A stretch of DNA of 47,265 bases from an uncultured Candidatus Poseidoniales archaeon. Its GTDB lineage: Archaea > Thermoplasmatota > Poseidoniia > Poseidoniales > Poseidoniaceae. The notes beneath the pieces are model-generated. The model worked only from the letters and a program-made list of their open reading frames with translations, made no database searches and was not told where the DNA came from. The translations under genes were made by a program, and so were the position numbers. Every line of letters starts with the position of its first letter. Position 1 is the first letter of the stretch. The stretch spans positions 1-47,265 of the forward strand of contig CABYOM010000006.1 of NCBI GenBank assembly GCA_902520595.1. The letters are read 5' to 3'. This document shows positions 5,666-44,278 of this stretch, piece after piece.

Positions 5666-8600
5666 TCACTGTTGATAGGCAATCCAAGCGCCCGATGCAG
5701 TATCGTAATACGAGAGAGAGCCATCGGCTGCCTTTGACCAGTTTACTCCATTATCTTCCCACTGTTGTGGTTCTTGACTAATCGAAGGAACCTCTTTCAC
5801 CGCTTCGTATTGCATGTTTGAATCGGTTGCAGAGTCGGTATACTGTTGTTCAGCAAAAGGAGAAGCATCTGTGACATCTTGATTTCTTCGAACAATGAGT
5901 AATGCTGCGATGGCAATGAAAACCAGCAGAGCGACAACAGCGATGATCAAGCCGCCACTTCCGCCACTTTCAGAGGCTTTCTCCGAGCGTGCAGGGTCTT
6001 CAGGATAGTAGTCATAGGTGTCTGAGACCCCGTCACCATCAGTGTCTGTTGTTTCATTACGGTCAAGAGGGAAGTCATCTTCTGCATCATTGACACCGTC
6101 TTGGTCAGTATCCATTTGTGTCAAAGCACATCCATCATCAAATACTATTGAGCCAATTGGAGAAAGTGGACAGGTGTCGTTAATATTTTTCACACCATCT
6201 TCATCGTCGTCTTTTTGATATTCTGAACATCCGTCAAAATCAACACCATGTTCTTCATCGGTATTTGGACACAGATCTTTGGCGTTGTTGATGTTATCGT
6301 TATCGGTATCGAGCTGCGAATCTGCACAACCTCTGTTGTTGACTTGTTCTCCTTGAGGTGTAGCAGGGCATGAATCAATAGTATTGTCAATCATATCTGC
6401 GTCATCGTCAATTTGGTTGTCAGCACATCCAGTTGAATTGGTAATTTGACCGATTTCCGTATCCGGGCACAAATCATCGCTGTTCCAGATTGCATCGTTA
6501 TCGTCATCACGTTGAGCATCAGAACACCCATCTTCATCGACTTCGGCACCTTGTGCGGTCGTTTGACAAAGATCATCCATATCGTTGATGCCATCGTTGT
6601 CCGTATCACGCTGAGCTGCCGAACAGCCTACCCCATTTACCAAAGATCCTGGTGAGGTTGAAGGACATTCATCCAGTTGGTCATTGATACTGTCTCCATC
6701 TGTGTCAAGTTGTGAATCTGCACATCCAGCAGCATCCACGGAAGAACCCAGTGGTGTCATAGGGCAAGCATCAAACGCATCCATTACTCCATCGTTATCT
6801 CCATCCTCTTGTGAACCTGAACATCCTGTATCATCTACTGTTTCGCCTGCCGGTGTTGTAGGACACGCATCAAGGTCGTTGGTTACTCCATCCAGGTCAT
6901 CGTCTTTCTGCTGCGCGCTGCATCCGTTCAAATCGACAGTTTGCCCAACAGGAGTGTTGAGGCACTGGTCAGGAGTGTCACCATTTGGATTGTCTCCATA
7001 CCCATCGCCGTCATCATCAAACCATTGAGTTGGCTCGGATGGGAATCGGTCTGCAGCGTTTCCGTTTTGGTTGTCACCGTAACCGTCTCCATCAGAATCT
7101 TGCCACTGTGTGCCATCCATAGGGAAGGCATCAGGGTCATTTCCGGCTTGGTTATCACCGAAACCATCCTTATCTTGGTCAGCCCATTGGGTAGCATCAC
7201 TTGGGAATGCATCGCCGTTGTTTCCCGTTGGATTATCCCCATAGCCGTCACCATCGGAATCTTCCCATTGGGTAGAGTCGGTCGGGAAATCATCAGGAGA
7301 TGTCCCGGGGGGGTTGTCTCCATATCCATCACCATCTTGGTCAGACCATTGGCTTGAGTCAGCAGGGAATGCATCACCGTTCGTACCTGTTGAATTATCT
7401 CCATATCCGTCTCCATCAGTGTCTTCCCATTGCGTTGGGTCTGCAGGATACTCGTCTGCATAATTGCCTGCAGAATTATCTCCGTAACCATCACCGTCTT
7501 GATCGGACCATTGAGTAGGGTCGTAGGGGAATGCATCAGAGGAATTACCGTTTGGATTATCTCCATAACCGTCTCCATCCTGGTCATTCCATTGTGAACT
7601 GTCTAATGGGAATGCATCGGGTGAATTACCAGTAAGATTGTCTCCATAACCATCTCCATCAAGGTCTGAATACTGGCTGCCGTCGGTGGGGAATGCATCG
7701 ATGAGGTCGTTGTAACCATCACCATCGGAGTCTTTCTGAGAAAGTTCGCATCCATTCAGATCCACAGTTGCACCAGCAGTCGTGTTCGCACACAGGTCAT
7801 ACTCATTGGCAACGCCATCGTTATCATCATCAAGCGTCAAAGAGAAACAATCACTGTCACCAATCAATTGGACATTGACATCAGAATACAGATTGACGAC
7901 CGCACAGTAGATTCCGCTCATGTTTGGTGTTGCGTAAGTGAAGGTTTGCATACTCATGTTTTGGGCAGTCGCCGTGAAATTCGAGAGAGCGGAAGATGCA
8001 AGTGAAGCACCAGCAGCATCGGTAACTAAAATCTGGTATTTGTATTGGTCTCCAGTAACCAAGTCGCTGCCTTTGACCATGACATCATTGGTTGCAGAAG
8101 TTGGACTGGTCGAATACGAGTCGATGAGCATGCTTGGTAGTTGAGGAATGAACTCATCATTGTGGATTCCAATTGCGCCTCCATTTGAAGTTAAATTGAC
8201 TTGAGTGTTGTTGAAGGAAAGGAACGCAACAAATCCATGATCGTTCATGGTTGTCGGTCCATTCCATGTAATCTGCCAAGATTTATCGGTGACGGTATCG
8301 GTAGAGAAGGTAACATTCACTTGGTCAACAACGGATGCTGATAGTGCTACATCGACGTCCATAGAATTGGTGAAGTTGTTGTCGAATTCAACTATATCAT
8401 AGACAAGCCACCAAATTGTGTAATCGGTATACATGGTGAGGTTCGATGCATAGATTTCACCAGTCGTCGATGAGGTAACATCGATTTCAAGCATTTCGAT
8501 GTAGATACAGTCTTCATCTTCATCAAGCATAGCGCCATTTATATCCTTCAATACCGATTCAGAGCAATATTCTGATTCTTCCATACTCGGTGATGCAGCA

Positions 8601-9766
8601 GTGGCATTGACCATCATTGATGTAGCAGTTGCATTCAATGTGCCGTTTGTAGGTGCGGACCAAGTTTCGGTTCCATCGAGGAAATACTGAACGCTCGAGT
8701 GGTTGTAGAGATAGGAATTTCCGACGGTTAATCCCGTAAATTCAAGTAACGAATCAGTGGTGCTGTTCATGGTTACTTCAACTGATTCAAACGTCTGACC
8801 GCCTCCTGGTAAATTGGTCGTAATCGAAATATCGTAGACATTGACGTCTCCGCTGTATCCATAGACCTGCAGATACGTCGTTTGATTTGAGGAGGAGAAA
8901 ACAGTCATCGATTCAATATTTCCGGTCGAACCAGAGCTTGAGAGATAAGCCCCTGCTGCACTGTTCCAATCGGTATCGATGTCACCGTTCGCACCGTTAA
9001 AAGTGATGTTTGCATAATAGGTCACACCCGTGATCATATCGATTTCAAAATAATCCTGATCGATTGAGGTGTGAATCGATAGGCCTGTACATGAAAGTGG
9101 AAGCATCGATGCTTGAGTAGCAGTCGGTGCAGCATCGTTTGGTTCCAGAATATCCGAAACGAGTGTTCCTGAGCCAGCACAGTTTGATGGCGGTGAGGTA
9201 CCATTACCTCCACCAGTACCGTTTCCGGATGAGATGCTAAATGTCCAGAAGTCAAGGATGTAGAATCCATAGCCGTCATAACGCGACATTTGGACATAAA
9301 CGGTTCCTCCATGAGCAGTAGCTGAATTATTGGTGCTTACAGATTCGGGATTATACATGTATGAGGAATCCATGACGTTTCCATTCGCATCAAAGATTGC
9401 AATATCAAAATCATTGAAGTATGTTGATCCGTTTGAAGAAGTATATGTTGAATTAAAAGAAAGTTCCAGTGCCATCCCTTCATTTGCTGAAAGATTAACT
9501 GCGAACCAATCTAAATCATCGTTAACATCGAATTCTCCGAAGTCAGAGAAATACACAGGAGCGAACCCTGAAACATTGGCAACAAATGTTGAATTAATTC
9601 CAGACATGTTGTCTGGTAGGTCGAAACTGGTTCCGAAATCGTTTTGATTTGGCCCTATCGCTGACGCGGTTGGAACAGCAAGAGTAAGCGTTGTAAATAC
9701 GAGCATCAATGCCAAAAAAAAGGCGTTGGTTTTGCTTGTGGCTGTAGTTCTCGATAACGAGGGCAT
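5666..9766 (-). CDS. giant secreted/membrane-anchored TSP3-type Ca-binding repeat protein with C-terminal TM and short cytoplasmic domain
   Basis: Signal/TM sequence MPSLSRTTATSKTNAFFLALMLVFTTLTLAVPTASA; PPC-like N-terminal regions; 27-aa DxDGDGYGDN...FPxDxTQW repeats, then ~33-aa DxDxDGxxDxxDxCPxT...GC repeats; TM GGLIIAVVALLVFIAIAALLIVRR; C-terminus WEDNGVNWSKAADGSLSYYDTASGAWIAYQQ. Start trimmed from 9880 to avoid overlap with the upstream gene. Confidence 0.85.
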   Translation of the reverse strand: MPSLSRTTATSKTNAFFLALMLVFTTLTLAVPTASAIGPNQNDFGTSFDLPDNMSGINSTFVANVSGFAPVYFSDFGEFDVNDDLDWFAVNLSANEGMALELSFNSTYTSSNGSTYFNDFDIAIFDANGNVMDSSYMYNPESVSTNNSATAHGGTVYVQMSRYDGYGFYILDFWTFSISSGNGTGGGNGTSPPSNCAGSGTLVSDILEPNDAAPTATQASMLPLSCTGLSIHTSIDQDYFEIDMITGVTYYANITFNGANGDIDTDWNSAAGAYLSSSGSTGNIESMTVFSSSNQTTYLQVYGYSGDVNVYDISITTNLPGGGQTFESVEVTMNSTTDSLLEFTGLTVGNSYLYNHSSVQYFLDGTETWSAPTNGTLNATATSMMVNATAASPSMEESEYCSESVLKDINGAMLDEDEDCIYIEMLEIDVTSSTTGEIYASNLTMYTDYTIWWLVYDIVEFDNNFTNSMDVDVALSASVVDQVNVTFSTDTVTDKSWQITWNGPTTMNDHGFVAFLSFNNTQVNLTSNGGAIGIHNDEFIPQLPSMLIDSYSTSPTSATNDVMVKGSDLVTGDQYKYQILVTDAAGASLASSALSNFTATAQNMSMQTFTYATPNMSGIYCAVVNLYSDVNVQLIGDSDCFSLTLDDDNDGVANEYDLCANTTAGATVDLNGCELSQKDSDGDGYNDLIDAFPTDGSQYSDLDGDGYGDNLTGNSPDAFPLDSSQWNDQDGDGYGDNPNGNSSDAFPYDPTQWSDQDGDGYGDNSAGNYADEYPADPTQWEDTDGDGYGDNSTGTNGDAFPADSSQWSDQDGDGYGDNPPGTSPDDFPTDSTQWEDSDGDGYGDNPTGNNGDAFPSDATQWADQDKDGFGDNQAGNDPDAFPMDGTQWQDSDGDGYGDNQNGNAADRFPSEPTQWFDDDGDGYGDNPNGDTPDQCLNTPVGQTVDLNGCSAQQKDDDLDGVTNDLDACPTTPAGETVDDTGCSGSQEDGDNDGVMDAFDACPMTPLGSSVDAAGCADSQLDTDGDSINDQLDECPSTSPGSLVNGVGCSAAQRDTDNDGINDMDDLCQTTAQGAEVDEDGCSDAQRDDDNDAIWNSDDLCPDTEIGQITNSTGCADNQIDDDADMIDNTIDSCPATPQGEQVNNRGCADSQLDTDNDNINNAKDLCPNTDEEHGVDFDGCSEYQKDDDEDGVKNINDTCPLSPIGSIVFDDGCALTQMDTDQDGVNDAEDDFPLDRNETTDTDGDGVSDTYDYYPEDPARSEKASESGGSGGLIIAVVALLVFIAIAALLIVRRNQDVTDASPFAEQQYTDSATDSNMQYEAVKEVPSISQEPQQWEDNGVNWSKAADGSLSYYDTASGAWIAYQQ
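6060..6974 (-). repeat. tandem ~99-bp coding repeat (TSP3-like 33-aa DTDNDGINDMDDLCxxTxxGxxVxxxGCxxxQ units)
   Basis: Regular paired-Cys TSP3-like units in the same ORF. Confidence 0.8.
6975..7740 (-). repeat. tandem ~81-bp coding repeat (27-aa DQDGDGYGDNxxGNxxDAFPxDxTQW units, about 9 copies)
   Basis: Read directly from the translated ORF; units differ by substitutions but keep length. Confidence 0.85.
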
Positions 9767-9809
9767 AAACAAGCGATTCCGTAATAGTTTAAGATACTCT
9801 CTGATGGAA

Positions 9810-10091
9810 TTAAATCGCTGTAGGAGCAACATGTCCATCATTTTTGTCTTCTGGCTTGCGAACTCTCGACCAAACTCCACCCATCAAGTCATCATGGCAT
9901 TTTGTGCAATAGTAGAATCGACGGTATGCTTCTCTGAAAGAATAGGCCTTCTTTCCTGTAGCGACGAGGAAACCTTCCGGGGAGAGTCGAGATACTATGC
10001 CCCCTTCTTGTCCACACCCAGGGAAATCACACACCGCTGGTCCGCTCATGATACGCACACATGCTTGAGGGTCTTTAATGGTCGTATCCAT
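9810..10091 (-). CDS. small Cys-containing putative zinc-binding protein
   Basis: MDTTIKDPQACVRIMSGPAVCDFPGCGQEGGIV...FYYCTKCHDDLMGGVW; CxxxxC and CxxC knuckles; fits between flanking genes on the same strand. Confidence 0.65.
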   Translation of the reverse strand: MDTTIKDPQACVRIMSGPAVCDFPGCGQEGGIVSRLSPEGFLVATGKKAYSFREAYRRFYYCTKCHDDLMGGVWSRVRKPEDKNDGHVAPTAI

Positions 10092-19012: not shown

Positions 19013-19756
19013 TTACACACGCATGACTGCATTGCACGTTGGACATTCAATTTGTCCTTCATAGTCACTTGGAACTTGTAATTCAGCTTCACATGAACTG
19101 CAACTTACAGTTGTCTTTCCGCTGGAATCACTGTTTGAACCAAGGATTCTTTCAATCGGTTCAGGCCATCCACTTTTCAATGTTGGAGATATCATCAACG
19201 GAAGTGCTACAATGACCATACATGAGACTGAGCACATAATTGAGGTGAGAACCATGCCATCACCCCACGCAATCGAAACAGGATTAACTTGGTCGCCGTG
19301 AAAAATGATACTCAATAATCCAGAAATTACGAGAACTCCAAGTGTGAAATTAATTCCATTCCGATATCCAGAGTAAGTCATTGCTCCCCCTAATAAAAAT
19401 CCGAGACCAAGAATGAAAGCAATAGGTGAAAGAATCCACCCTAATCCTCCCATTCCTCCTACAGAGAATATGACGGCCCAGAACAAGCGAAAAATTGCAT
19501 AGAGAATGATACAAATTCCAATTCCACTGGCAAGTTCGCTTTCTTTCTTAACGTAGATCATTTGTTGTTGAGGGTATGTACCAGGGGCATGTTGAGGGAA
19601 GGCTGGAGATTGAATCTGGGATTGTGCAGGTGGGAGTCCAACTTCGTCGTTCTCCATCAGTCGGATAACGACTTCTGATTTATTCCCAGATACTCGAAGA
19701 CCTCTCTCTTTGCACAATGTTTTGAGCTGTAATAACGTCATATCGTCATAGTCCAT
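19013..19756 (-). CDS. SAP-domain / multi-TM / C-terminal zinc-ribbon protein
   Basis: N-term MDYDDMTLLQLKTLCKERGLRVSGNKSEVVIRLMEND (SAP-like); hydrophobic middle; C-term VSCSSCEAELQVPSDYEGQIECPTCNAVMRV (CxxC...CxxC). Confidence 0.8.
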   Translation of the reverse strand: MDYDDMTLLQLKTLCKERGLRVSGNKSEVVIRLMENDEVGLPPAQSQIQSPAFPQHAPGTYPQQQMIYVKKESELASGIGICIILYAIFRLFWAVIFSVGGMGGLGWILSPIAFILGLGFLLGGAMTYSGYRNGINFTLGVLVISGLLSIIFHGDQVNPVSIAWGDGMVLTSIMCSVSCMVIVALPLMISPTLKSGWPEPIERILGSNSDSSGKTTVSCSSCEAELQVPSDYEGQIECPTCNAVMRV

Positions 19757-28987: not shown

Positions 28988-29488
28988 ATGGCTGGAGGCG
29001 GAAGTGCACCTGCGATGAAGATGAGTGATGTGTTCATTCTTCTGGGTGTGACTTTTTTGCTTGGCGGTCTTTTCATTCACGGATTAGTCTCACCTGTAGG
29101 AGTTGATTCTGAATCTGAAGCTTATACCAGCGGAGCGTCATTACTGAAAGGTGATTCAATGCAATTTACGATTGAGGCTGTCGACCAATCTTCATTCAGC
29201 ATCGAGATCTTCGATGAGGGGGGGTCGGTCCTTTTGACTGAATCTTTTGACCTTGCCAGTGGAGACTCGGAGTCGATTGATTTTGAAGCTGATGAGAAAG
29301 GATTCTACTCGTTTTCCATTGAATTTTCAGATGGCTCTGGTGATGTTCTGGTCGATGTGGACCGCAAACTTTTGATCGATTTCATCATCTATCCACTCGG
29401 TGCGGTATGTATCGTGTTTGGTATTGCTAAGAGGAAAGATGAGCAAGGGAAAGAAGCACTCGATGCCGTGTTGGAACCAAGCGATTAA
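28988..29488 (+). CDS. membrane protein: two TM helices flanking an extracytoplasmic beta domain
   Basis: MAGGGSAPAMKMSDVFILLGVTFLLGGLFIHGLVSP...FIIYPLGAVCIVFGIAKRKDEQ. Confidence 0.65.
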   Translation: MAGGGSAPAMKMSDVFILLGVTFLLGGLFIHGLVSPVGVDSESEAYTSGASLLKGDSMQFTIEAVDQSSFSIEIFDEGGSVLLTESFDLASGDSESIDFEADEKGFYSFSIEFSDGSGDVLVDVDRKLLIDFIIYPLGAVCIVFGIAKRKDEQGKEALDAVLEPSD

Positions 29489-30966
29489 TACGTATCGTAA
29501 TTTGACCAAATTACGTGTTCTCCATCTTCGATAGTGTGCAACTTTTTTGGAGCCTCAAGAAGCGTCATTTTACCTTCTGTATCAATCGAGTTAAATTTCA
29601 TCTCAGTGTCTCTATAGAAAGGCTTTCCTAAGACCTCTAGTGTAGTTCCAAAAACCTCTGAATAATATTCTAAAAAACTCTTCTTTTTAACATCATTTAT
29701 TCCTGATTTTTGTTCAAACCAAGAGGCGACAGATGCTTGTATTGAACGTTCAAATTCTGGCAGGGTAATACCCTCATTTATCTCTTCGAGTGTTGCAATG
29801 GAATACTCGTTTTTATGGAGTTCTGTAGATGAGACATTACACCCAATCCCAAGGATTGCCCGAGTTACTTTTCCTCGACTCGAACTTTCAACCAAAACGC
29901 CGCCTACTTTTCGCAATTCACCTTTGACCAGTAGCAAGGCATCATTCGGCCATTTGAGCACGACACTCGCATTTTCCGGGCACGAGGAATTGATGGCTTC
30001 ATGTAATGCAAGTCCTCCTTGAAGTTGAAGCAATCCCGGACTTGAAATTGAACTGCTGTCATGAATAACCCAAGATCCTGCAAAAGCTACATCTTCATGG
30101 GACCATGGTCTGCCGCGACGACCATGGCCTGCAAGTTGGCGGCCTGCTTGTAGAAAACTCCCTTTTGGATGCATTGAGTTGAGTAAAAAAGTGTTGGTTG
30201 AATCGATTTCGGTTTCATACAATTTCGCTTGTTGCTCAAACGGTCGCCAAAGAGCAAAAACTTCGAGGCATTCCCCATCTTCTAAGCGTTGAACAGAGAC
30301 GCTACGAATTGCAAAACCTTCTCGTATACACGTCGTTCGAATTCTCCTGCTTCGTTCATTTCGAGAAACGAGAAGAAAAACGGTCCCGCCGTCGGCTAAA
30401 ATCGTCGTAGTATTCAGTTGCATGAGTAAGCGAGAAACAAGACCTTTTTGATCGGTATCTAAGAGCGCTGCTTCCTCAAGGGGTCCCAAATGAGGCGAGT
30501 CCTTAGCAGGAACCAAATAAGGTAGATTCCAAATGATGACATCATGTCGTTTATCTCCCGCCCATTGACTGACTTCTCCGTCAATAAGTGGACCTGGTCC
30601 GCCTTCATTAACCGTGATTTTAAGGTCGTTTTTTAGAGACGAATTACGACTGCTCGCAACTGCAAAAGGATTGATGTCACACGCAGTTACTGAAAAACCA
30701 ATTTGTGCAGAAAAAAGAGAAATTGCGCCTGAGCCACAACCGATCTCGAGTAGGTTTTTTCCTCTGGGTTGATCGTAGTTGTGAAGCACGCTTGCAAGTA
30801 AGTCAGTATCTTCTCGAGGCGGATAGACAGTGGGAGGAATTGTAAGGTGAATTTCTCGATTTTGAGGCGTGGTCCAAATTCGGTCCTCAGCAACCCTGTC
30901 GAGCCGCTCAATTTCTTGTTCGGCGTCGAGAGAGCCGAAGTATTCCTCCTCTACCATTTGGTCCAT
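29485..30966 (-). CDS. fusion: HemK/PrmC-like class I methyltransferase plus biotin-protein ligase (BirA)
   Basis: N-half VYPPREDTDLLASVL...LLEIGCGSGAISLFSAQIGFSVTACDINPFAV...IIWNLPYLVP; C-half IDSTNTFLL...AGRQLAGHGRRGRPWSHEDVAFAGSW...LKWPNDALLLVKGELRKVGGVLVES...AILGIGCNV. Confidence 0.9.
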   Translation of the reverse strand: MDQMVEEEYFGSLDAEQEIERLDRVAEDRIWTTPQNREIHLTIPPTVYPPREDTDLLASVLHNYDQPRGKNLLEIGCGSGAISLFSAQIGFSVTACDINPFAVASSRNSSLKNDLKITVNEGGPGPLIDGEVSQWAGDKRHDVIIWNLPYLVPAKDSPHLGPLEEAALLDTDQKGLVSRLLMQLNTTTILADGGTVFLLVSRNERSRRIRTTCIREGFAIRSVSVQRLEDGECLEVFALWRPFEQQAKLYETEIDSTNTFLLNSMHPKGSFLQAGRQLAGHGRRGRPWSHEDVAFAGSWVIHDSSSISSPGLLQLQGGLALHEAINSSCPENASVVLKWPNDALLLVKGELRKVGGVLVESSSRGKVTRAILGIGCNVSSTELHKNEYSIATLEEINEGITLPEFERSIQASVASWFEQKSGINDVKKKSFLEYYSEVFGTTLEVLGKPFYRDTEMKFNSIDTEGKMTLLEAPKKLHTIEDGEHVIWSNYDTY

Positions 30967-31159: not shown

Positions 31160-31233
31160 GGGCCTGTAGCTCAGTCAGGTAGAGCGTCGGACTTTTAATC
31201 CGATGGTCGCGGGTTCGAACCCCGTCAGGCCCG
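31160..31233 (+). tRNA. tRNA-Lys (anticodon UUU)
   Basis: Cloverleaf by eye: acceptor GGGCCTG/CAGGCCC, anticodon stem TCGGA/TCCGA with loop CTTTTAA, T arm GCGGG-TTCGAAC-CCCGT; no encoded CCA. Confidence 0.95.
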
Positions 31234-31281
31234 CCTGATTGGGTTTCTGGGCAAAATAGCGGGGTTATACGGGGTCTGAGC

Positions 31282-31932
31282 ATGGTAGTAAAAAGCGCAA
31301 CAAAAAAGCGTCTCATGGAGCTTGGAGTCTCCGAAGAGTTCGCACATAAACTAGCAACTGATCGAAACATGACTGACATCAAGGCGATGTCTTCTGATGA
31401 AGTCGCATCGACACTCGGTGTTTCCAAAGATTCTGAACAATTCATCAATACCATGTCGGTCATCGCCGAGCAAGGTTCACGTCGCCGCTCGAAATCGAAG
31501 AGTAAGAAGATTACAATTCGTGCCAAGGCTATCGATGACTTCGACCGTCCTGAAATTACCATGCGATTCAATGCTCTCAACCACATTTTGGTTCCTCACC
31601 AAGAGTTGGTCGGCGAAGCAAATATTTCTGTTGAAGACCAATTCGCCGTCGAAAGCGAAGAACTCGCTCCGTGGGAAATGCTTCAGGAAGACAGCGAAAC
31701 AGGCGAGCCACGATTGGCTAAAGAGTGGTTGCCGAAGATTCTCATCACCGACCCGGTCGTTCAAGTTATCAAAGAAACGGCAGAAGCCCAAGACAATGCT
31801 CGTCTTGCTGCTGACCCAGACCACAAACCACTCGCCGCAGGTTGGATCGCCGACCGCGTACTGAAAGTTGTCCGCAAGTCTCCATCTGCTGGCAAAACCG
31901 TTGCTTATCGACTCATCGTAGAGGGTAACTAA
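31282..31932 (+). CDS. rpoH: DNA-directed RNA polymerase subunit H with N-terminal helical extension
   Basis: FNALNHILVPHQELV...WLPKILITDPVV...DRVLKVVRKSPSAGKTVAYRLIVEG (Rpb5 C-terminal-like) after [29 protein letters not shown].... Confidence 0.92.
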   Translation: MVVKSATKKRLMELGVSEEFAHKLATDRNMTDIKAMSSDEVASTLGVSKDSEQFINTMSVIAEQGSRRRSKSKSKKITIRAKAIDDFDRPEITMRFNALNHILVPHQELVGEANISVEDQFAVESEELAPWEMLQEDSETGEPRLAKEWLPKILITDPVVQVIKETAEAQDNARLAADPDHKPLAAGWIADRVLKVVRKSPSAGKTVAYRLIVEGN

Positions 31933-31944
31933 GGAGGTATTATC

Positions 31945-34900
31945 ATGCAAGAAATAATTCAATCATTTTTCAAAGAACGTAGCCTCGTCAACCACCAACT
32001 CGCATCCTATGACGACTGTATCCCGTCTGGCGACAATTCCATTTCCCGTATGGAAAAAATCATTCGCAACATCCGTGTTGGAACCGATGAAGAAATCATC
32101 GATGATGATGGTGGTTACATCAAACTTGACGTTGTCGATCACGATATCACCATCCGTTTGAAGAACATCAAACTCGGCGAGCCAACCATTCGTGAAGCAA
32201 ACGGTGCTGAACACCCTTCTTCGCCTATGGAATGTCGACTTCGCAAGTTGACCTACATGTCTCCAGTCACCATCGATTTCCAAATCTCACGTAACGGTGT
32301 TCCTTCACCTGTCGAAGCAGGAGTTCAAGTTGGTAGTATGCCAATTATGGTTCGTTCAACCCGATGTAATTTGCATGCAAAGCACATTGCTGGAGAGCGA
32401 CAACTCTATCCAACCACCTCATCTGAAGACGCTGCTATGTGGGATGAACTTCTACGAAAGCGTGGCGAAGACCCTCTTGACCCAGGAGGCTACTTCATCA
32501 TCAACGGAACAGAACGTGTCCTCATTTCTATGGAAGACCTTGCACCAAACCGTGTTACTGTCGAAATCAACAAGCGATATGCTAAGCGCACAGAAGTTGC
32601 TAAAATTTTCTCTCAGAAAGACGGAATGCGCAAGCCGCTTAATGTTGAAAAGCGACGTGACGGAATGCTCATGGTCAAAATCAGTACAGCTGGCACGACT
32701 GCAATCCCTGTCGTTCTCTTGATGCGAGCACTTGGAATCGAAAACGACCAAGAAGTGTTCCAGACAGTTGCAGGTCCAACTGAGACGTTCAAGTATATCG
32801 TCGCAAACCTCAATGAAGTCAATGACAATGAAGAATATGCAGTTCAATCAATGGTCGAAGCACACGAATGGTTGCAAAAGAAATTCGCTGCTGGGCAACA
32901 AAAGGAATACCGTGAACAACGTGTTAACCAATTGCTTGACCGTGAACTTCTCCCTCACTTGGGTGACCAACCAACCGATCGTAAGAAGAAGGCTATTTTC
33001 CTAGGACGTATCGTTCGACAAGTTCTTGAAATGGCTTTGACAAACCGTGAGCCGAACGACAAAGACCACTACGCAAACAAGCGTGTCCGTCTTGCAGGAG
33101 ACCTTATCGAAGATTTATTCCGTGTTTCATCAGGGCAACTCGCTCGAGATTTGAAGTATCAACTTGAACGCCACCACAACCGCAAGCGTGAACTGAAAAT
33201 CACTTCTTGCCTTCGACCGGATGTTCTCACTTCCAAGATCATGCACGCATTGGCCACAGGTAACTGGGTTGGTGGACGTTCTGGTGTCAGTCAACTGCTT
33301 GACCGAACAACCTACCTTGCATCTCTTTCGCACATGCGCAGAGTCACCTCTCCACTTGTTCGAAGCCAACCTCACTTCGAAGCACGTGACCTTCACCCAA
33401 CACAATGGGGCCGATTATGTCCGAACGAAACCCCAGAAGGACAAAACTGTGGTTTGGTAAAGAACGCAGCTCAAATGATCGATATCTCGGAGCATATCAG
33501 CGAAATCGAAGTTCGTGAACAACTTGACGAACTCGATGTTAACAGCGAACTTGAAGATTGGAGTTCTGGTGACCGTATTCACGTTAACGGTGATATTTAC
33601 GGTATTCACAAGAACGGTAAAAACTTGGTTCGCCACTTCAAATCCGCTCGTCGGCGAGGAACCATTCCCGCTGAAGTATCGATTCGCCACGACAAGGAGA
33701 ACAAGGACATTTTCATCAACACCGACAAAGGACGTATTCTGCGACCTTTGATCATCCTCTATGACGGGGCACCTCGTTTGACAGGCGACCACCTACAAGC
33801 TTTGCGTGAAGGTGAAATGACGTTCAAGAACTTGGTCAACGAAGGTGTTGTTGAATGGGTCGATGCTGAAGAAGAAGAAGACCTTCTCATCGCAGCTCGT
33901 CCATTCGTTCTTCCTGAGACAATTCCGTCTGGTCCTTTCGAAGGTCGTCCACTGACAAATGAAAATGTTGAGTGGGTGAATCTTGGAGAGCCCGGTGCTA
34001 CTGAGGCTAAATTAGTAGCAAAGGTCCGCATGCCGAATGGTGATTGGGAATCTGCAGAGGTTTCAGTCCCTCTCATGTATGATGAAGAATACACACACTG
34101 CGAAATTGACCCTCAACTTGTTTTGGGAGTTTGTGCATCACTTATTCCTTATCCGGAACACAATTCCACTCCACGTGTTACTGGTGGAACAGCCATGGTC
34201 AAGCAATCGCTTGGTCTGCCAAGTTCCAACTATCGTATGCGTCCAGACACACGTGCGCACATTTTGCACTATACTCAGACATCGATTACACGAACTGCGG
34301 CTATGGAGTCTACTCATTTCGATGAGCGCCCTGGTGGTCAAAACTTCATCGTGGCAATCATGTCGCTTCATGGATACAACATGCAAGACGCAGTCATCAT
34401 GAACAAAGGTTCAGTTGACCGTGCTCTTGGACGTTCAACATTCAACAGGACATACAACGCTGAACGTCGTAGATTCCCAGGTGGTCAAGTCGAAGAAATC
34501 GAAAAGCCAGGTAGTTCTCTGCAAGAAGTCAAGGGACTCAAACCTGAAGAGTCCTACCGACATTTGGAAGCAGACGGTCTGCCGTTGCCAGAAATGTATC
34601 TTGAAGGCGGAGATGTGCTGGTTGGTAAAACCAGTCCACCTCGTTTCCTTGAAGAATCCGCAGGTGGAGCTTTCTTACTCGCTCAAGAACGTCGTGAATC
34701 ATCAATGCTCGTTCGCCATGGTGAGAAGGGATGGGTCGACAATGTCTATGTTACCGAGTCTCTCGACTCCGGTCGCTTGGTCAGAGTCATGGTCCGAAGC
34801 CACAAAGTTCCTGAAGTTGGTGACAAGTTTGCATCTCGACACGGTCAAAAGGGAGTCATTGGACGACTTGTTGAACCTGAAGACATGCCGTTCACTGCCG

Positions 34901-35552
34901 ATGGAACCGTTCCTGACTTGATTATTAACCCGCACGCAATTCCGTCTCGAATGACTGTTGCTCACGTTTTGGAAATGATTGGCGGTAAAGTTGGTTCATT
35001 GGAAGGTCGCCGAATTGATGCTACTGCATTCCGCGGTGAAAAAGAAAGCAGCCTCCGTGATGGACTTGTTCGTAACGGACTTGCTCACACCGGCCGTGAG
35101 ACAATGATTAACGGTGAAACTGGAGAAGTCTATCCTGCTGACATCTTCATCGGCTGTATCTACTATCAACGATTGCACCACTTGGTGTCTTCAAAGATTC
35201 ACGCTCGTTCTCGTGGTCGTGTCCAAATCCTCACACGTCAACCGACTGAAGGTCGAGCACGTCAAGGTGGTCTACGATTCGGTGAAATGGAACGTGACTG
35301 TTTGATTGCTCACGGTGCATCTATGGTTATCAAAGACCGTCTTCTGGATGAATCTGACGGAATTGACATGTATGTCTGTGCTCAATCCGGCCACATTGCC
35401 TGGTATGATCCGAAACGACGAACTTATGTCAGTCCAATCCATGGTGATGGTGCTGAAGTCTACAAAGTACAAACCTCGTATGCATTCAAGCTGCTCCTCG
35501 ACGAAATGAAGAGTTTAGGTGTGGCCATGAGACTCGAACTGGAGGACCGACG

Positions 35553-35556
<4 letters not shown>
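31945..35556 (+). CDS. rpoB: DNA-directed RNA polymerase subunit B (unsplit)
   Basis: 1203 aa; CPNETPEGQNCGLVKNAAQ; VGDKFASRHGQKGVIG; YAFKLLLDEMKSLGV. SD-like GGAGGT upstream of the ATG. Confidence 0.97.
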
Positions 35557-40312
<4,756 letters not shown>

Positions 40313-40359: not shown

Positions 40360-40659
40360 ATGGACCTAAACCGACAATTGAAAAACGCAATAGCAACTGG
40401 AAACCTGAGATTTGGACAACGCCAAGCCATCGATGCATGTGCCCGTGGTGAAGCGAAACTGATCATTTTTGCAGCGAACTGCCCTACTGAATTTACCGAT
40501 GAACTTCATGCGAATCATCCTGAAGTTACCAAATTCCGTGCAGGCATGGTGAACCGAGAACTTGGAATTGCTTGCAGCAAGCCATTTTCCGTATCTACTA
40601 TTAGCATCATCGATGCTGGTGATAGCGATTTACTTCAACTCGAGACAAATCTTGAGTAA
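40360..40659 (+). CDS. rpl30e: ribosomal protein L30e
   Basis: MDLNRQLKNAIATGNLRFGQRQAIDACARGEAKLIIFAANCP...; usual position after rpoA''. Confidence 0.92.
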   Translation: MDLNRQLKNAIATGNLRFGQRQAIDACARGEAKLIIFAANCPTEFTDELHANHPEVTKFRAGMVNRELGIACSKPFSVSTISIIDAGDSDLLQLETNLE

Positions 40660-40729
40660 CTTGCTTCTCACCTGGTTTTACGAACCATCGAATGAAAGGT
40701 TTGATGTCTGTCGACCGCTTGGTCAGTGT

Positions 40730-43700
40730 ATGCGCCTATCGAATGCAACGTTTTCTGCGTTTTTGTTGACCTTTATGATGCTCTCATCTTTACTGATCTT
40801 TGAGCATCCAAATTTCACTGACACTGAGCTCAAAGATTCAAGTCAAGATGACCTTCTTTCTACCTCTGCACGTAATTCTGCAAAATCTTTCCTCGTATCA
40901 GGGGGATCTTCGACTCAAAGTATTGATGCTGAATATATCGATTCCAATCCAACCGGTGGCTGGGTCATAGGTTCGACATTTAACCAAACGTTGACATTTG
41001 GAACTCAAACGCTCTCGCCCTCCTCACCGTATACCTTTGGCGAATTTTTCCTTGCCTCTGTAGATGATGCAGGTAACTGGCTATCCGTTTTCGGTGCTGA
41101 CCACAGTTTTGGCTCTGGAGGTCTTTCTTCTCTCAATGATATCACAGTTGATGCGGGTGGAGAAATCATTGTAACTGGATTTTTTTACGGTGAAATTTCC
41201 TTCTCCGGTGGTGGCGGACCCGCTGCTGTCATCTCAAATACCAATCCAAATTTTCATCGCGAGGGTTTTGTGGCTAAGGCAGACCCGATGGGTAACTGGC
41301 TTTGGGCACACAGTTTCGTGACACTGGTCAACGGTTCAGGAGAATTTAGCGATACCGAATCTGTCGTACTGAACACGATGGGTGAAGTATACCTCACCGG
41401 AACTTTCCAGGGCGAAACCGATTTTGGTGGCTTTTCACTGAATGAATCAAGCACACAAATCTATGTTGCCAAATTCGATGGAATGAACGGCTTACTTCAG
41501 TGGGTTGTTAGCGGTGGTGGAATAGGTACAAACGCAGTGTTCGATATGGCTACAACCTCTTCTGGAGGCGTGAAGATTGCGACTGTATGTGATGGTTTTT
41601 CCCAGTGGTCGACTTCAAGTTATGTGGCTAAAGGAACCTTTGATGCATTGATTGTCGAATTAGACAGTAATGGTGGTGTCATCAATCTCAATGGAATTGG
41701 AACCACGGGACAGCAAACAGTGGTTACTCAAATCCAAATCGACCAAGCAGGTGATACCTACCTGGCTGGAACCTTTGGCGGAACTATTACCAGTAGTGGC
41801 TGGAGTGCAACAGCGAGTTATGGAGGAAATGATGTTTTCGTTTCACGTAGTGCAGCATCTCCTTCCAACAGTTGGGCAGTCGTCTCTGGGTCCAGTGCAG
41901 AAGATGAACCGTGGGCTCTTGCAGTCACCTCATCGGGACAAGTCATCTTTGGGGGATATTACTCTGCAGCATTTACTGCTGGTTCAACAACAATAAGTCC
42001 GTCAAATCACGATGGTTATGCAGTTGGAATTTCATCAACTGGTACAATTGATTGGACTGAAAGAATTGGAGGTTCACAGTATGATTATGTGTGGAGCATG
42101 ACCGTTAACATGAGTGATTTCGTTGGTGTAGGCGGTTCCTATTCTGGTTCGATGACTCATGATGGTACCACACTGACATCATCTGGTGGTCGAGATTCCT
42201 ATGTTTGGGTTTTCGACCCATCATCTCTCAAGGATTCGGACGGTGACAGCGTCGTTGATGTTGATGATAATTGTCCAAATGTTGCAAACCCTTCACAAGC
42301 CAATACTGACGGTGACTCCTACGGAGATGAGTGTGATTCTGACGACGACAATGATGGTTTAACTGACAATTTCCCAGACCTTTGTCCTCGAAACGGCGAG
42401 TTCAATTGGACCAGCGACCAAGACTTTGATAATCCTTCAGATTCAACCGACTGGGATAACGATGGTTGTAAAGATGACTCCGAAGATCTTGATGACGATA
42501 ACGATGGAGTTCTTGACGTAAGTGACTTGTGCCCTTACACATCATACAGTCCTCCTCGCCCAACATGGGTCTCAGATACTACTACCAATGATATCGATGG
42601 CGATGGATGCCGTGACAGCGACGAGGATGTCGATGATGACGCTGATACCTTTGACGACGTGAACGACGATTGTCCAACGCTTGCGGGAACATCGACACTT
42701 GGAACAACTGGCTGTCTTGATACAGATGGAGATGGATGGTCCGACACAACCGATGATTGCCCAAATGAAGCTGGAAACTCGACTCTTGGTGGTAAGAATG
42801 CTTGTCCAGATAATGACGGTGACGGTTGGTCAAATGCGGACGATGCATTCCCTGATGAGGTAACTCAGTGGGCTGATGCAGATTCTGATGGTTTTGGTGA
42901 TAATACTATGGGTATAACCCCTGACGACTGCCCTACTGTTCCAGGAACATCAACGCTTGACCGGCTTGGATGTTTTGATGCTGATGAGGACGGTTATTCA
43001 AATGCCGATTCAACTTGGTATACAGAAGACGGTGCAGATGCATTCCCGTCAGATGCTACCCAATGGTCAGATTTTGACGGGGATGGATTCGGTGATAATT
43101 GGGGCAATTCAAGTTGGGACGACCGCAAGACCTCTTGGCCTGGTGAGCTCGTAGCCGGTGCTACAACGCAAGATGCTTGTCCTACACTTGCTGGAGATTC
43201 TTGGAGAGCAGATACTCTTGGATGTCCTGACGCAGATGGTGATGGATGGTATGACCTCATGGATGCGTTTGTCAATGATGCAACTCAATGGGAAGATATG
43301 GATATGGATGGTTTTGGTGATAATCTATCGGGCAATGAACCAGATGCTTGCCCAACGATTCCAGGAAATTCCTCAATGGACCGATTTGGCTGCATAGATA
43401 CCGATGGTGATGGCTACTCAAATGCCGACATTTCTTGGGGCTTTGACATGGGTGGCGATGCTTTTTCCAACGATCCTTCTCAATGGCTTGACAGTGATGG
43501 TGACGGGTATGGTGAGAATCCTCTCGGAACAACTCCTGACGCGTGTCCTACAATTCGCGACACCTCAAATGTTGACCGGTATGGTTGCGCAGATACTGAC
43601 GGTGACGGCGTTTCAGACCCGGATGATTCTTGGACACTTACTGATGGTGCTGACGCCTGTATCTTAGGTGCCGGCAATTCAACTGCAGACCGTAACGGTT

Positions 43701-44278
43701 GCTTTGACGGGGATGGTGACGGATATTCAAACCCAACCGAAGATTGGAAAGTGAGTGATGGAGCGGACGCTTATCCTGACGACCCTTTCCGATGGCTCCA
43801 AGAAACTTCATCCAGTGACGATGCATCATCTTCAACGACCCTTTTCCTTGGAATAGGGGGAGTTCTTGTTCTGGCAATTGTTGCCGTACTTGCAATAATT
43901 TTCCTCCGTAAGCCTGGAGATGAAGAGCCAGTTAACAAAACCTGGAATGATGGTTCCTTTGCCCCAATGGGTAGCGCAATGCCTGCAATGCCAAACATGG
44001 CAGCCCAGCCGGCGGTCATGATGCCTGTATACAGCAATCCTCCACAGCAGATGGCGCAAGTCGCTTCCACCCCCGCAGTTGCAATGCCGAACATGGCCGC
44101 TCAACCTGCAGCAGTTGCACAACCTGCAGCAGTTGCTCAGCCAGCTCCTGTTGCACAACCTGCACCTGTTCAGCCCGACCCTGCCCGTGAATATTACAAC
44201 GGATTGATTGCGCAAGGATATCCTCAGCCGAGTGCTCTTCAATATACCCAGCAATACTATCCAACGTTCCAAGCGTGA
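40730..44278 (+). CDS. giant surface protein: N-terminal beta-propeller-like repeats, TSP3-like Ca-binding repeats, TM, Pro/Ala/Gln tail, C-terminal helical motif
   Basis: Signal MRLSNATFSAFLLTFMMLSSLLIF; repeated GEVYLTGTFQGETDFG-type segments; DSDGDGYGENP/DTDGDGVSDPDD repeats; TM STTLFLGIGGVLVLAIVAVLAIIFLRK; C-term PAREYYNGLIAQGYPQPSALQYTQQYYPTFQA. Start trimmed from 40562, which overlaps rpl30e. Confidence 0.85.
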   Translation: MRLSNATFSAFLLTFMMLSSLLIFEHPNFTDTELKDSSQDDLLSTSARNSAKSFLVSGGSSTQSIDAEYIDSNPTGGWVIGSTFNQTLTFGTQTLSPSSPYTFGEFFLASVDDAGNWLSVFGADHSFGSGGLSSLNDITVDAGGEIIVTGFFYGEISFSGGGGPAAVISNTNPNFHREGFVAKADPMGNWLWAHSFVTLVNGSGEFSDTESVVLNTMGEVYLTGTFQGETDFGGFSLNESSTQIYVAKFDGMNGLLQWVVSGGGIGTNAVFDMATTSSGGVKIATVCDGFSQWSTSSYVAKGTFDALIVELDSNGGVINLNGIGTTGQQTVVTQIQIDQAGDTYLAGTFGGTITSSGWSATASYGGNDVFVSRSAASPSNSWAVVSGSSAEDEPWALAVTSSGQVIFGGYYSAAFTAGSTTISPSNHDGYAVGISSTGTIDWTERIGGSQYDYVWSMTVNMSDFVGVGGSYSGSMTHDGTTLTSSGGRDSYVWVFDPSSLKDSDGDSVVDVDDNCPNVANPSQANTDGDSYGDECDSDDDNDGLTDNFPDLCPRNGEFNWTSDQDFDNPSDSTDWDNDGCKDDSEDLDDDNDGVLDVSDLCPYTSYSPPRPTWVSDTTTNDIDGDGCRDSDEDVDDDADTFDDVNDDCPTLAGTSTLGTTGCLDTDGDGWSDTTDDCPNEAGNSTLGGKNACPDNDGDGWSNADDAFPDEVTQWADADSDGFGDNTMGITPDDCPTVPGTSTLDRLGCFDADEDGYSNADSTWYTEDGADAFPSDATQWSDFDGDGFGDNWGNSSWDDRKTSWPGELVAGATTQDACPTLAGDSWRADTLGCPDADGDGWYDLMDAFVNDATQWEDMDMDGFGDNLSGNEPDACPTIPGNSSMDRFGCIDTDGDGYSNADISWGFDMGGDAFSNDPSQWLDSDGDGYGENPLGTTPDACPTIRDTSNVDRYGCADTDGDGVSDPDDSWTLTDGADACILGAGNSTADRNGCFDGDGDGYSNPTEDWKVSDGADAYPDDPFRWLQETSSSDDASSSTTLFLGIGGVLVLAIVAVLAIIFLRKPGDEEPVNKTWNDGSFAPMGSAMPAMPNMAAQPAVMMPVYSNPPQQMAQVASTPAVAMPNMAAQPAAVAQPAAVAQPAPVAQPAPVQPDPAREYYNGLIAQGYPQPSALQYTQQYYPTFQA
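42230..43790 (+). repeat. TSP3-like Asp-rich calcium-binding repeat region
   Basis: Repeated DxDGDGxxDxxDxCP and DGDGYSNADxSWxxxxGxDAFxxDxxQW units in the translation. Confidence 0.8.
44090..44180 (+). repeat. short in-frame tandem repeat encoding (V)AQPA(A/P)V units
   Basis: PNMAAQPAAVAQPAAVAQPAPVAQPAPVQP in the cytoplasmic tail. Confidence 0.85.

Follow-up and report, generated by a model that had tools for sequence, protein, structure and literature searches.

Archaeal RNA polymerase is usually treated as having core subunits that hardly vary, with RpoH no more than an assembly domain. The RNA polymerase operon of a Candidatus Poseidoniales (marine group II, MGII) genome bin raises the question of what the N-terminal extension of its RpoH is, where it came from, and what it might do for the enzyme. 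The window analysed is one whole contig of this bin, 47,265 nt in length. The gene order on its + strand is tRNA-Lys (TTT; 31160-31235), rpoH (31282-31932, an open reading frame of 216 aa), rpoB (31945-35556), rpoA' (35553-38753), and rpoA'' (38753-40312, 519 aa). The RpoH of the window has 99% identity to proteins of public Poseidoniales MAGs. Archaeal RpoH has been described without an N-terminal domain (PMC3906176, PMC2675907), which agrees with the preliminary description of this locus, where archaeal RpoH was said to be normally only the short Rpb5 C-terminal-like domain. In what follows, the first Poseidoniales family is read as MGIIa (Poseidoniaceae), the second is taken to be MGIIb (Thalassarchaeaceae), and f3, a third family of the same class, is taken to be MGIII.

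Extra residues at the start of a protein can be the product of annotation or assembly, and the window does come from a metagenome-derived bin with a completeness of 69.6%. However, numerous independent MAGs show the same architecture, as do single-contig assemblies (G060, CM001443.1). Over 92 genomes the start codon of rpoH is ATG in 74, TTG in 16, and GTG in 2, the substitutions all falling at one and the same position, and the gene starts 46 nt past the end of the tRNA-Lys. For rpoA'' the start codon is ATG in 61 of 61, and in the window this ATG and the stop codon of rpoA' share one base. An artefact is therefore scarcely credible, a wrong start codon or assembly error being refuted by these comparative data. 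Both the RpoH and the RpoA'' starts hold up as correct by comparison across genomes, and true starts downstream of the extensions, a case that the preliminary description had considered, are ruled out. The tRNA-Lys (TTT) directly upstream of rpoH is a mark of synteny, being found there also in MGII, MGIII, and several other families. It follows that the extension emerged within a stable neighbourhood, between the tRNA and the Rpo5 core.

Other features of the window were recorded in passing. At 5666-9880 (-) and 40562-44278 (+) lie genes for two very large proteins of secreted type, each with long Asp-rich repeats (DxDGDGxxD) and, at the C-terminus, a membrane segment; one of these genes is directly downstream of the RNA polymerase operon. 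One open reading frame, judged by eye, resembles a HemK-type methyltransferase fused to a biotin-protein ligase (29485-30966, -). SAP-like motifs (LKKAELVEKAEALSLAKSGTKADLIERI; LLQLKTLCKERGLRVSGNKSEVVIRL), also found by eye, are in two proteins, one Pus10-like and one a small membrane protein with a zinc ribbon, at L221:4236-5000 (-) and at 19013-19756 (-) of the window.

The RpoH of Poseidoniales is a fusion of an ordinary archaeal Rpo5 assembly domain and an N-terminal five-helix module, connected by a basic, probably disordered linker; that is, it is an Rpo5 with an added domain. The module, defined by its homology to the RpoA'' N-terminus, spans residues 1-65 (31282..31476, +) and is in all complete MGII RpoH read. 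The linker, defined by charge and pLDDT, spans residues 66-81 (SRRRSKSKSKKITIRA; 31477..31524, +), with a net charge of +9 over residues 66-82 and of +5 to +9 in relatives. The Rpb5/Rpo5 assembly domain follows at residues 82-216 (31525..31929, +). This core is a match to PF01191 at 34.1 bits against a curated cut-off of 23.5, and RpoH matches the Rpo5 chain 1hmj of the PDB at residues 98-117, 148-163, and 192-213. When aligned to the short RpoH of MGIII, the MGII Rpo5 core contains two lineage-specific insertions, at about residues 112-149 (31615-31728) and 171-191 (31792-31854). In RpoA'', a paralogous copy of the five-helix module is present at residues 1-64 (38753..38944, +), as identified from alignment, profiles, and AF2. 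It is followed by a basic, little conserved linker, defined by identity and charge (residues 65-137; 38945..39163, +), which has 22% identity between MGIIa and MGIIb and a net charge of +2 to +10 over residues 65-105. The catalytic core with the trigger-loop region (residues 138-519; 39164..40309, +) matches TIGR02389 at residues 138-515, with 425 bits against a cut-off of 420.65.

The N-terminal modules of RpoH and RpoA'' are almost certainly homologous, with an order-wide distribution. A local BLOSUM62 alignment of RpoH residues 1-65 and RpoA'' residues 1-64 scores 129, where 5,000 shuffles gave a mean of 28.6 (sd 5.3) and a maximum of 55, for a z of about 19. The first 9 residues are identical between the copies, and past residue 25 the likeness of a single RpoH/A'' pair is weak (p 0.017). 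Comparison of profile with profile, from 88 RpoH and 60 A'' proteins, gives an E of 2.6e-24 over residues 1-66. Trimming of the first 16, 25, and 34 residues leaves E-values of 1e-13, 3e-6, and 2e-4, every score being above the best of 60 column-shuffled controls. Since these values persist after trimming, the likeness extends past the first few residues. Likeness confined to the first residues is rejected by the trimmed profiles, and chance or low-complexity likeness by the shuffled controls. The homology of an N-terminal helical domain of RpoH to the N-terminus of RpoA'', as put forward in the preliminary description, is thus confirmed, and the sharing of only the first few residues, which would have spoken against it, is ruled out. 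The alignment that it had suggested at both protein and nucleotide level gives a different result for the DNA, where the local alignment spans only 38 nt. The 4-fold sites of the two paralogs agree at 3 of 9. From these two observations it is clear that the copy is not recent.

Presence and absence across Thermoplasmatota, the mapping of which had also been suggested, follow the order. A profile of both MGII copies combined (A1) was run on 127 sampled Poseidoniales genomes and matches 124, with two matches in 113, three in one, and a single match in ten. In 262 further Thermoplasmatota genomes it has no match. Two of the three Poseidoniales genomes without a match also have no RpoH match in the RpoH search, as incomplete bins would give. 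Complete MGII RpoH proteins read are 195-216 aa, and shorter frames look cut by contig ends. The RpoH of MGIII is about 81-88 aa. In 43 other genomes of the phylum the RpoH open frames are 31-181 aa; the frames that were read match the Rpo5 core and carry no such module. The module on RpoH is found in MGII only, and elsewhere in Thermoplasmatota A'' often starts with a distant relative. The MGII profile has no match in 21 MGIII genomes even at E 10, yet the RpoA'' of MGIII starts with a related module, so that an empty sequence search is not the absence of the domain class. The profile survey covered Thermoplasmatota, and one contig scan with the full RpoH beyond it returned close relatives only. 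A scan of IMG/VR found no relative, and a viral source was rejected on this basis. None of the open-licence papers found by search describes the domain, and Poseidoniales are not mentioned in a 2026 survey of archaeal small subunits (PMC13257274).

The identical first 9 residues could suggest that the RpoH module is a recent copy without a separate role, kept alike by gene conversion with rpoA''. This is highly improbable. Identity between the RpoH and A'' copies is 0.496 in the same genome and 0.508 between genomes of one family, so there is no excess within genomes (permutation p 0.96), and the 4-fold sites of the paralogs are as divergent as stated above. In the proteins read, the copies are told apart by positions 10 (R in RpoH, K in A''), 13 (E/D), 29 (N/K), and 33 (I/V), with position 30 being M or L in RpoH and W in A'', and position 45 mostly L in RpoH and C in A'', which makes six fixed or near-fixed copy-specific positions. 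In a tree of the modules, the MGII A'' copies group as a single clade (99/99), which excludes the RpoH copies of either family; the alignment is short and the RpoH branching order is without resolution. The tree, the 4-fold sites, and the same-genome identity together reject a recent copy, and there has been no gene conversion between the copies since the duplication.

What the copies do share is under constraint. Identical in all 148 proteins (88 RpoH and 60 A'') are M1, V3, K4, S5, T7, K8, K9, L24, and A25, and E18, A21, H22, D27, and K34 are nearly invariant in both copies. Between MGIIa and MGIIb, A'' residues 1-34 have 86% identity, where the core has 66% and the trigger-loop region 90%. 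For RpoH residues 1-34 the figure is 69%, similar to that of the Rpo5 core. Constraint is much weaker in helices 3-5 (42% and 27% identity). At 4-fold synonymous sites of codons 2-34, agreement with the window across families is 35-38%, so with protein identity this high the constraint is on the protein, and on helices 1-2.

Relatives of the module are found on the RpoA'' of other families. Many other Thermoplasmatota carry, at the RpoA'' N-terminus, a module that agrees with that of MGII in length and pattern, such as MAKKDTINALVKRGVSEEVANLL, or MARLDTIRALEKRGLSPELAEKT in MGIII; in other families there are plain HhH_5 repeats at this site, and in still others a different domain. These modules (MAKKDTINALVKRGVSEE..., MARLDTIRALEKRGLSPE...) are like those of MGII in their position on A'', their length, and their colinear profile alignment, but the MGII copies bear a strongly conserved signature, M[VA]VKS[AS]TKK[KR]L, which the others do not. 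A profile of the non-MGII A'' modules only (A2), with no MGII sequence in the query, matches A''-sized frames in many families and also, in six MGIIb genomes, RpoH (E 9e-6 to 8e-4). By hhalign, MGII RpoH matches the non-MGII A'' modules with an E of 1e-7 (score 39 against a shuffled maximum of 15), and these modules match HhH_5 repeats with an E of 3e-7. The match of MGII A'' to the non-MGII A'' modules is weak (E 3e-4, score 23 against a shuffled maximum of 15, probability 24-38%), and in the tree the MGII copies stand apart from all others (100/97). The best explanation is that the module belongs to a divergent helix-hairpin-helix/SAM-like set at the RpoA'' N-terminus of many Thermoplasmatota.

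Because other Thermoplasmatota have relatives of the module on A'', the donor was probably A''. A single ancient copying event, in the direction from A'' to RpoH, is very probable. The copy is most likely to have been made before the split of MGIIa and MGIIb, in the Poseidoniales ancestor. The direction is drawn from the distribution rather than from rooting, the link of MGII A'' being weak and the main link running through RpoH. An intra-operon domain duplication, as it was called in the preliminary description, therefore stands as far as copying within the operon is concerned, but the event is ancient and order-wide, with A'' the likely donor, and is not local to this genome.

The N-terminus of A'' varies in other ways. 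In several deep Thermoplasmatota families, represented by L160, L164, L165, L166, and L169, clear HhH repeats (PGIGxxKAExLxxAGF), one or more in number, stand at the start of RpoA'', which makes the N-termini of A'' a hot spot of domain change in Thermoplasmatota. In MGIII (L140-L152), L162, L168, and L174, an extra region of several hundred residues, for example VEKKLGVIWSLPEGYTIDG..., lies between the N-terminal module and the core of A''. This region of MGIII and some other families has no significant Pfam match in the part tested. In Thermoplasma-like families, A'' starts with another domain (LLWKDT...).

Searched with the RpoH module, the genome of the window yields two copies only, and the A'' family profile finds one further protein besides. 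This third MGII protein, about 363 aa long and bearing a zinc-ribbon-like pair (CPxCG/CWxC), has an A''-type module at its start (MAKKDTYLALLRRGIDETTAQQLADSG, E 3.5e-11). By the A'' family profile it is at G000:C1:66116 (L215:1617-2708 +), L216:1414-2508, L220:4914-6008, and L221:517-1608 (-), and its gene is downstream of genes taken as rpl21e, rpoF, DUF655, and ksgA. The remainder of the protein is in 32 of 34 MGII genomes and in 0 of the other Thermoplasmatota searched.

The fold of the module is probably a SAM-like/(HhH)2 five-helix arrangement, as modelled. The five helices that AF2 places have a pLDDT mostly of 80-89. In the model of the A'' module the mean pLDDT is 82.9, and the helices are at 5-13, 18-25, 30-34, 38-45, and 49-64. 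In the full RpoH model, the helices are at 5-13, 18-25, 30-34, 38-45, and 52-72, with a pLDDT of 80-86 over residues 1-60, below 50 in the linker at residues 68-82, and about 60-80 in the core. Foldseek with this full model found poor matches only. Fold comparison of the A'' module gave FANCM (Z 8.3) and NusA C-terminal domains (7.9), and also XPF, UvrC, the Rad51/RadA N-terminal domains, and SAM domains; a Z of at most 8.3 is middling and, according to the warning of the tool, may mean just a common arrangement.

By its sequence the module appears to be a degenerate relative of HhH_5. A search of Pfam and NCBIfam with the module gave no match over threshold, and a PDB sequence search no significant relative. 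For HhH_5 (PF14520) no member is over the gathering cut-off, one of 20 having an E of 0.039 and the window sequence none. The first hairpin reads G-V-S/A-E-E/N instead of G-h-G, the second Gly being replaced by Ser or another residue and then followed by acidic residues. The HhH_5-like pattern noted in the preliminary description is thus upheld as a distant profile link, but only in a degenerate form that Pfam does not recognise over its cut-off and that has lost the second hairpin Gly.

That the two modules hold downstream or promoter DNA as classic HhH domains do is unlikely. The distant relation to the HhH_5 repeats at the A'' N-terminus elsewhere, the HhH-type structures among the best fold matches, and the basic linkers would all fit with this. 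However, the modules themselves are near neutral or acidic, with a net charge of -4 to +1, and the positive charge sits in the linkers. This and the degenerate hairpin, the first Gly of which is also lost in 12 of 60 A'' proteins, make the classic grip of DNA doubtful, as does the lack of a Pfam HhH match. Docking of protein by the module, with contact to nucleic acid by the linker, would fit better.

In the Sulfolobus enzyme, Rpo5 adjoins the groove of Rpo13 and the site of the eukaryotic Rpb5 jaw, near the downstream DNA (PMC2675907), and Rpo5 has been linked to downstream-DNA contact (PMC7289017). A module on the RpoH N-terminus would hang there. The best explanation as a whole, and a likely one, is that of a fusion RpoH, a single ancient copy, and tethered docking arms. 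The rpoA'' module would have been copied once to the 5' end of rpoH, between the tRNA-Lys and the Rpo5 core, and kept since. The two modules would then be tethered arms at the downstream-DNA/jaw end of the enzyme, on both of which the shared patch of helices 1-2 (K4, S5, K8, K9, K/R10, E18, H22, D27, K34) may dock one kind of partner, while the basic linkers would touch nucleic acid. Taken alone, the role as docking arms is somewhat favoured, and any named ligand would be doubtful.

The arms may help promoter opening or elongation in a lineage where no TFE has been found. There is no match to TFE-alpha (PF02002) in 15 MGII genomes, and Thermoplasmata have been stated in review to be without both TFE subunits (PMC7289017), which makes a part in opening promoters where TFE is lacking a reasonable guess. 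Strong TFE-alpha matches are present in three other families (f4, f15, f23), which also have A'' HhH domains. There is therefore no general trade-off with TFE, and replacement of TFE as a rule is weakened.

The two modules might instead dimerise as a pseudo-symmetric pair, like the (HhH)2 domains of XPF-ERCC1 or FANCM-FAAP24 and SAM domains, with the RpoH module clamping A'' as a jaw strap. The predicted fold does resemble domains that pair, the helix 1-2 surface is common to both copies and strongly conserved, and the fixed differences (10 R/K, 29 N/K, 30 M/W, 45 L/C) could mark the two sides of an interface. Nevertheless, the long linkers need no contact between the modules, and the A'' module occurs elsewhere in the phylum without an RpoH partner, so that such pairing is rather unlikely.

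Bacterial polymerase has two flexibly tethered copies of the alpha-CTD on one enzyme. The paired modules of RpoH and RpoA'' could be a joint recruitment platform near the downstream DNA, an independently evolved archaeal counterpart of the two alpha-CTDs that does the work of TFE, Rpo13, or the Rpb5 jaw, although this is at present a long shot. The alpha-CTD, NusA acidic repeats, the (HhH)2 domains of XPF and FANCM, the RadA N-terminal domain, and SAM domains are all small and helical, as the MGII modules are, and have no detectable sequence relation to them. The alpha-CTD is not among the fold matches listed, unlike NusA, FANCM, XPF, RadA, and SAM domains. The traits observed that would fit an alpha-CTD-like tether are the predicted disorder and the basic charge of the linkers.

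The MGII are among the commonest archaea of the surface ocean, and the whole order has fixed an extra RpoH module matching A'', a clear case of a polymerase growing by internal domain copying. That A'' residues 1-34 are held tighter than the catalytic core points to a ligand at the position that Rpo13 or the Rpb5 jaw occupies in other lineages. The eukaryotic Rpb5 jaw domain and Rpo13 of Sulfolobales are, as the MGII module would be, extra domains on or beside Rpo5 at the downstream-DNA side. However, the Rpb5 jaw has a length of about 130 aa, Rpo13 forms a subunit of its own, and no sequence match of the module to either was found; the RpoH profile matches eukaryotic Rpb5 chains at their C-terminal part only, for example at chain residues 189-209. 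The canonical RpoH/Rpo5 of Methanocaldococcus, Pyrococcus, and Sulfolobus shares with that of MGII the C-terminal assembly domain (PF01191) and its place as the first gene of the rpoH-B-A'-A'' operon. The canonical protein is about 80 aa without an N-terminal extension (PMC3906176), whereas MGII RpoH, at 195-216 aa, has the module, the basic linker, and the two core insertions.
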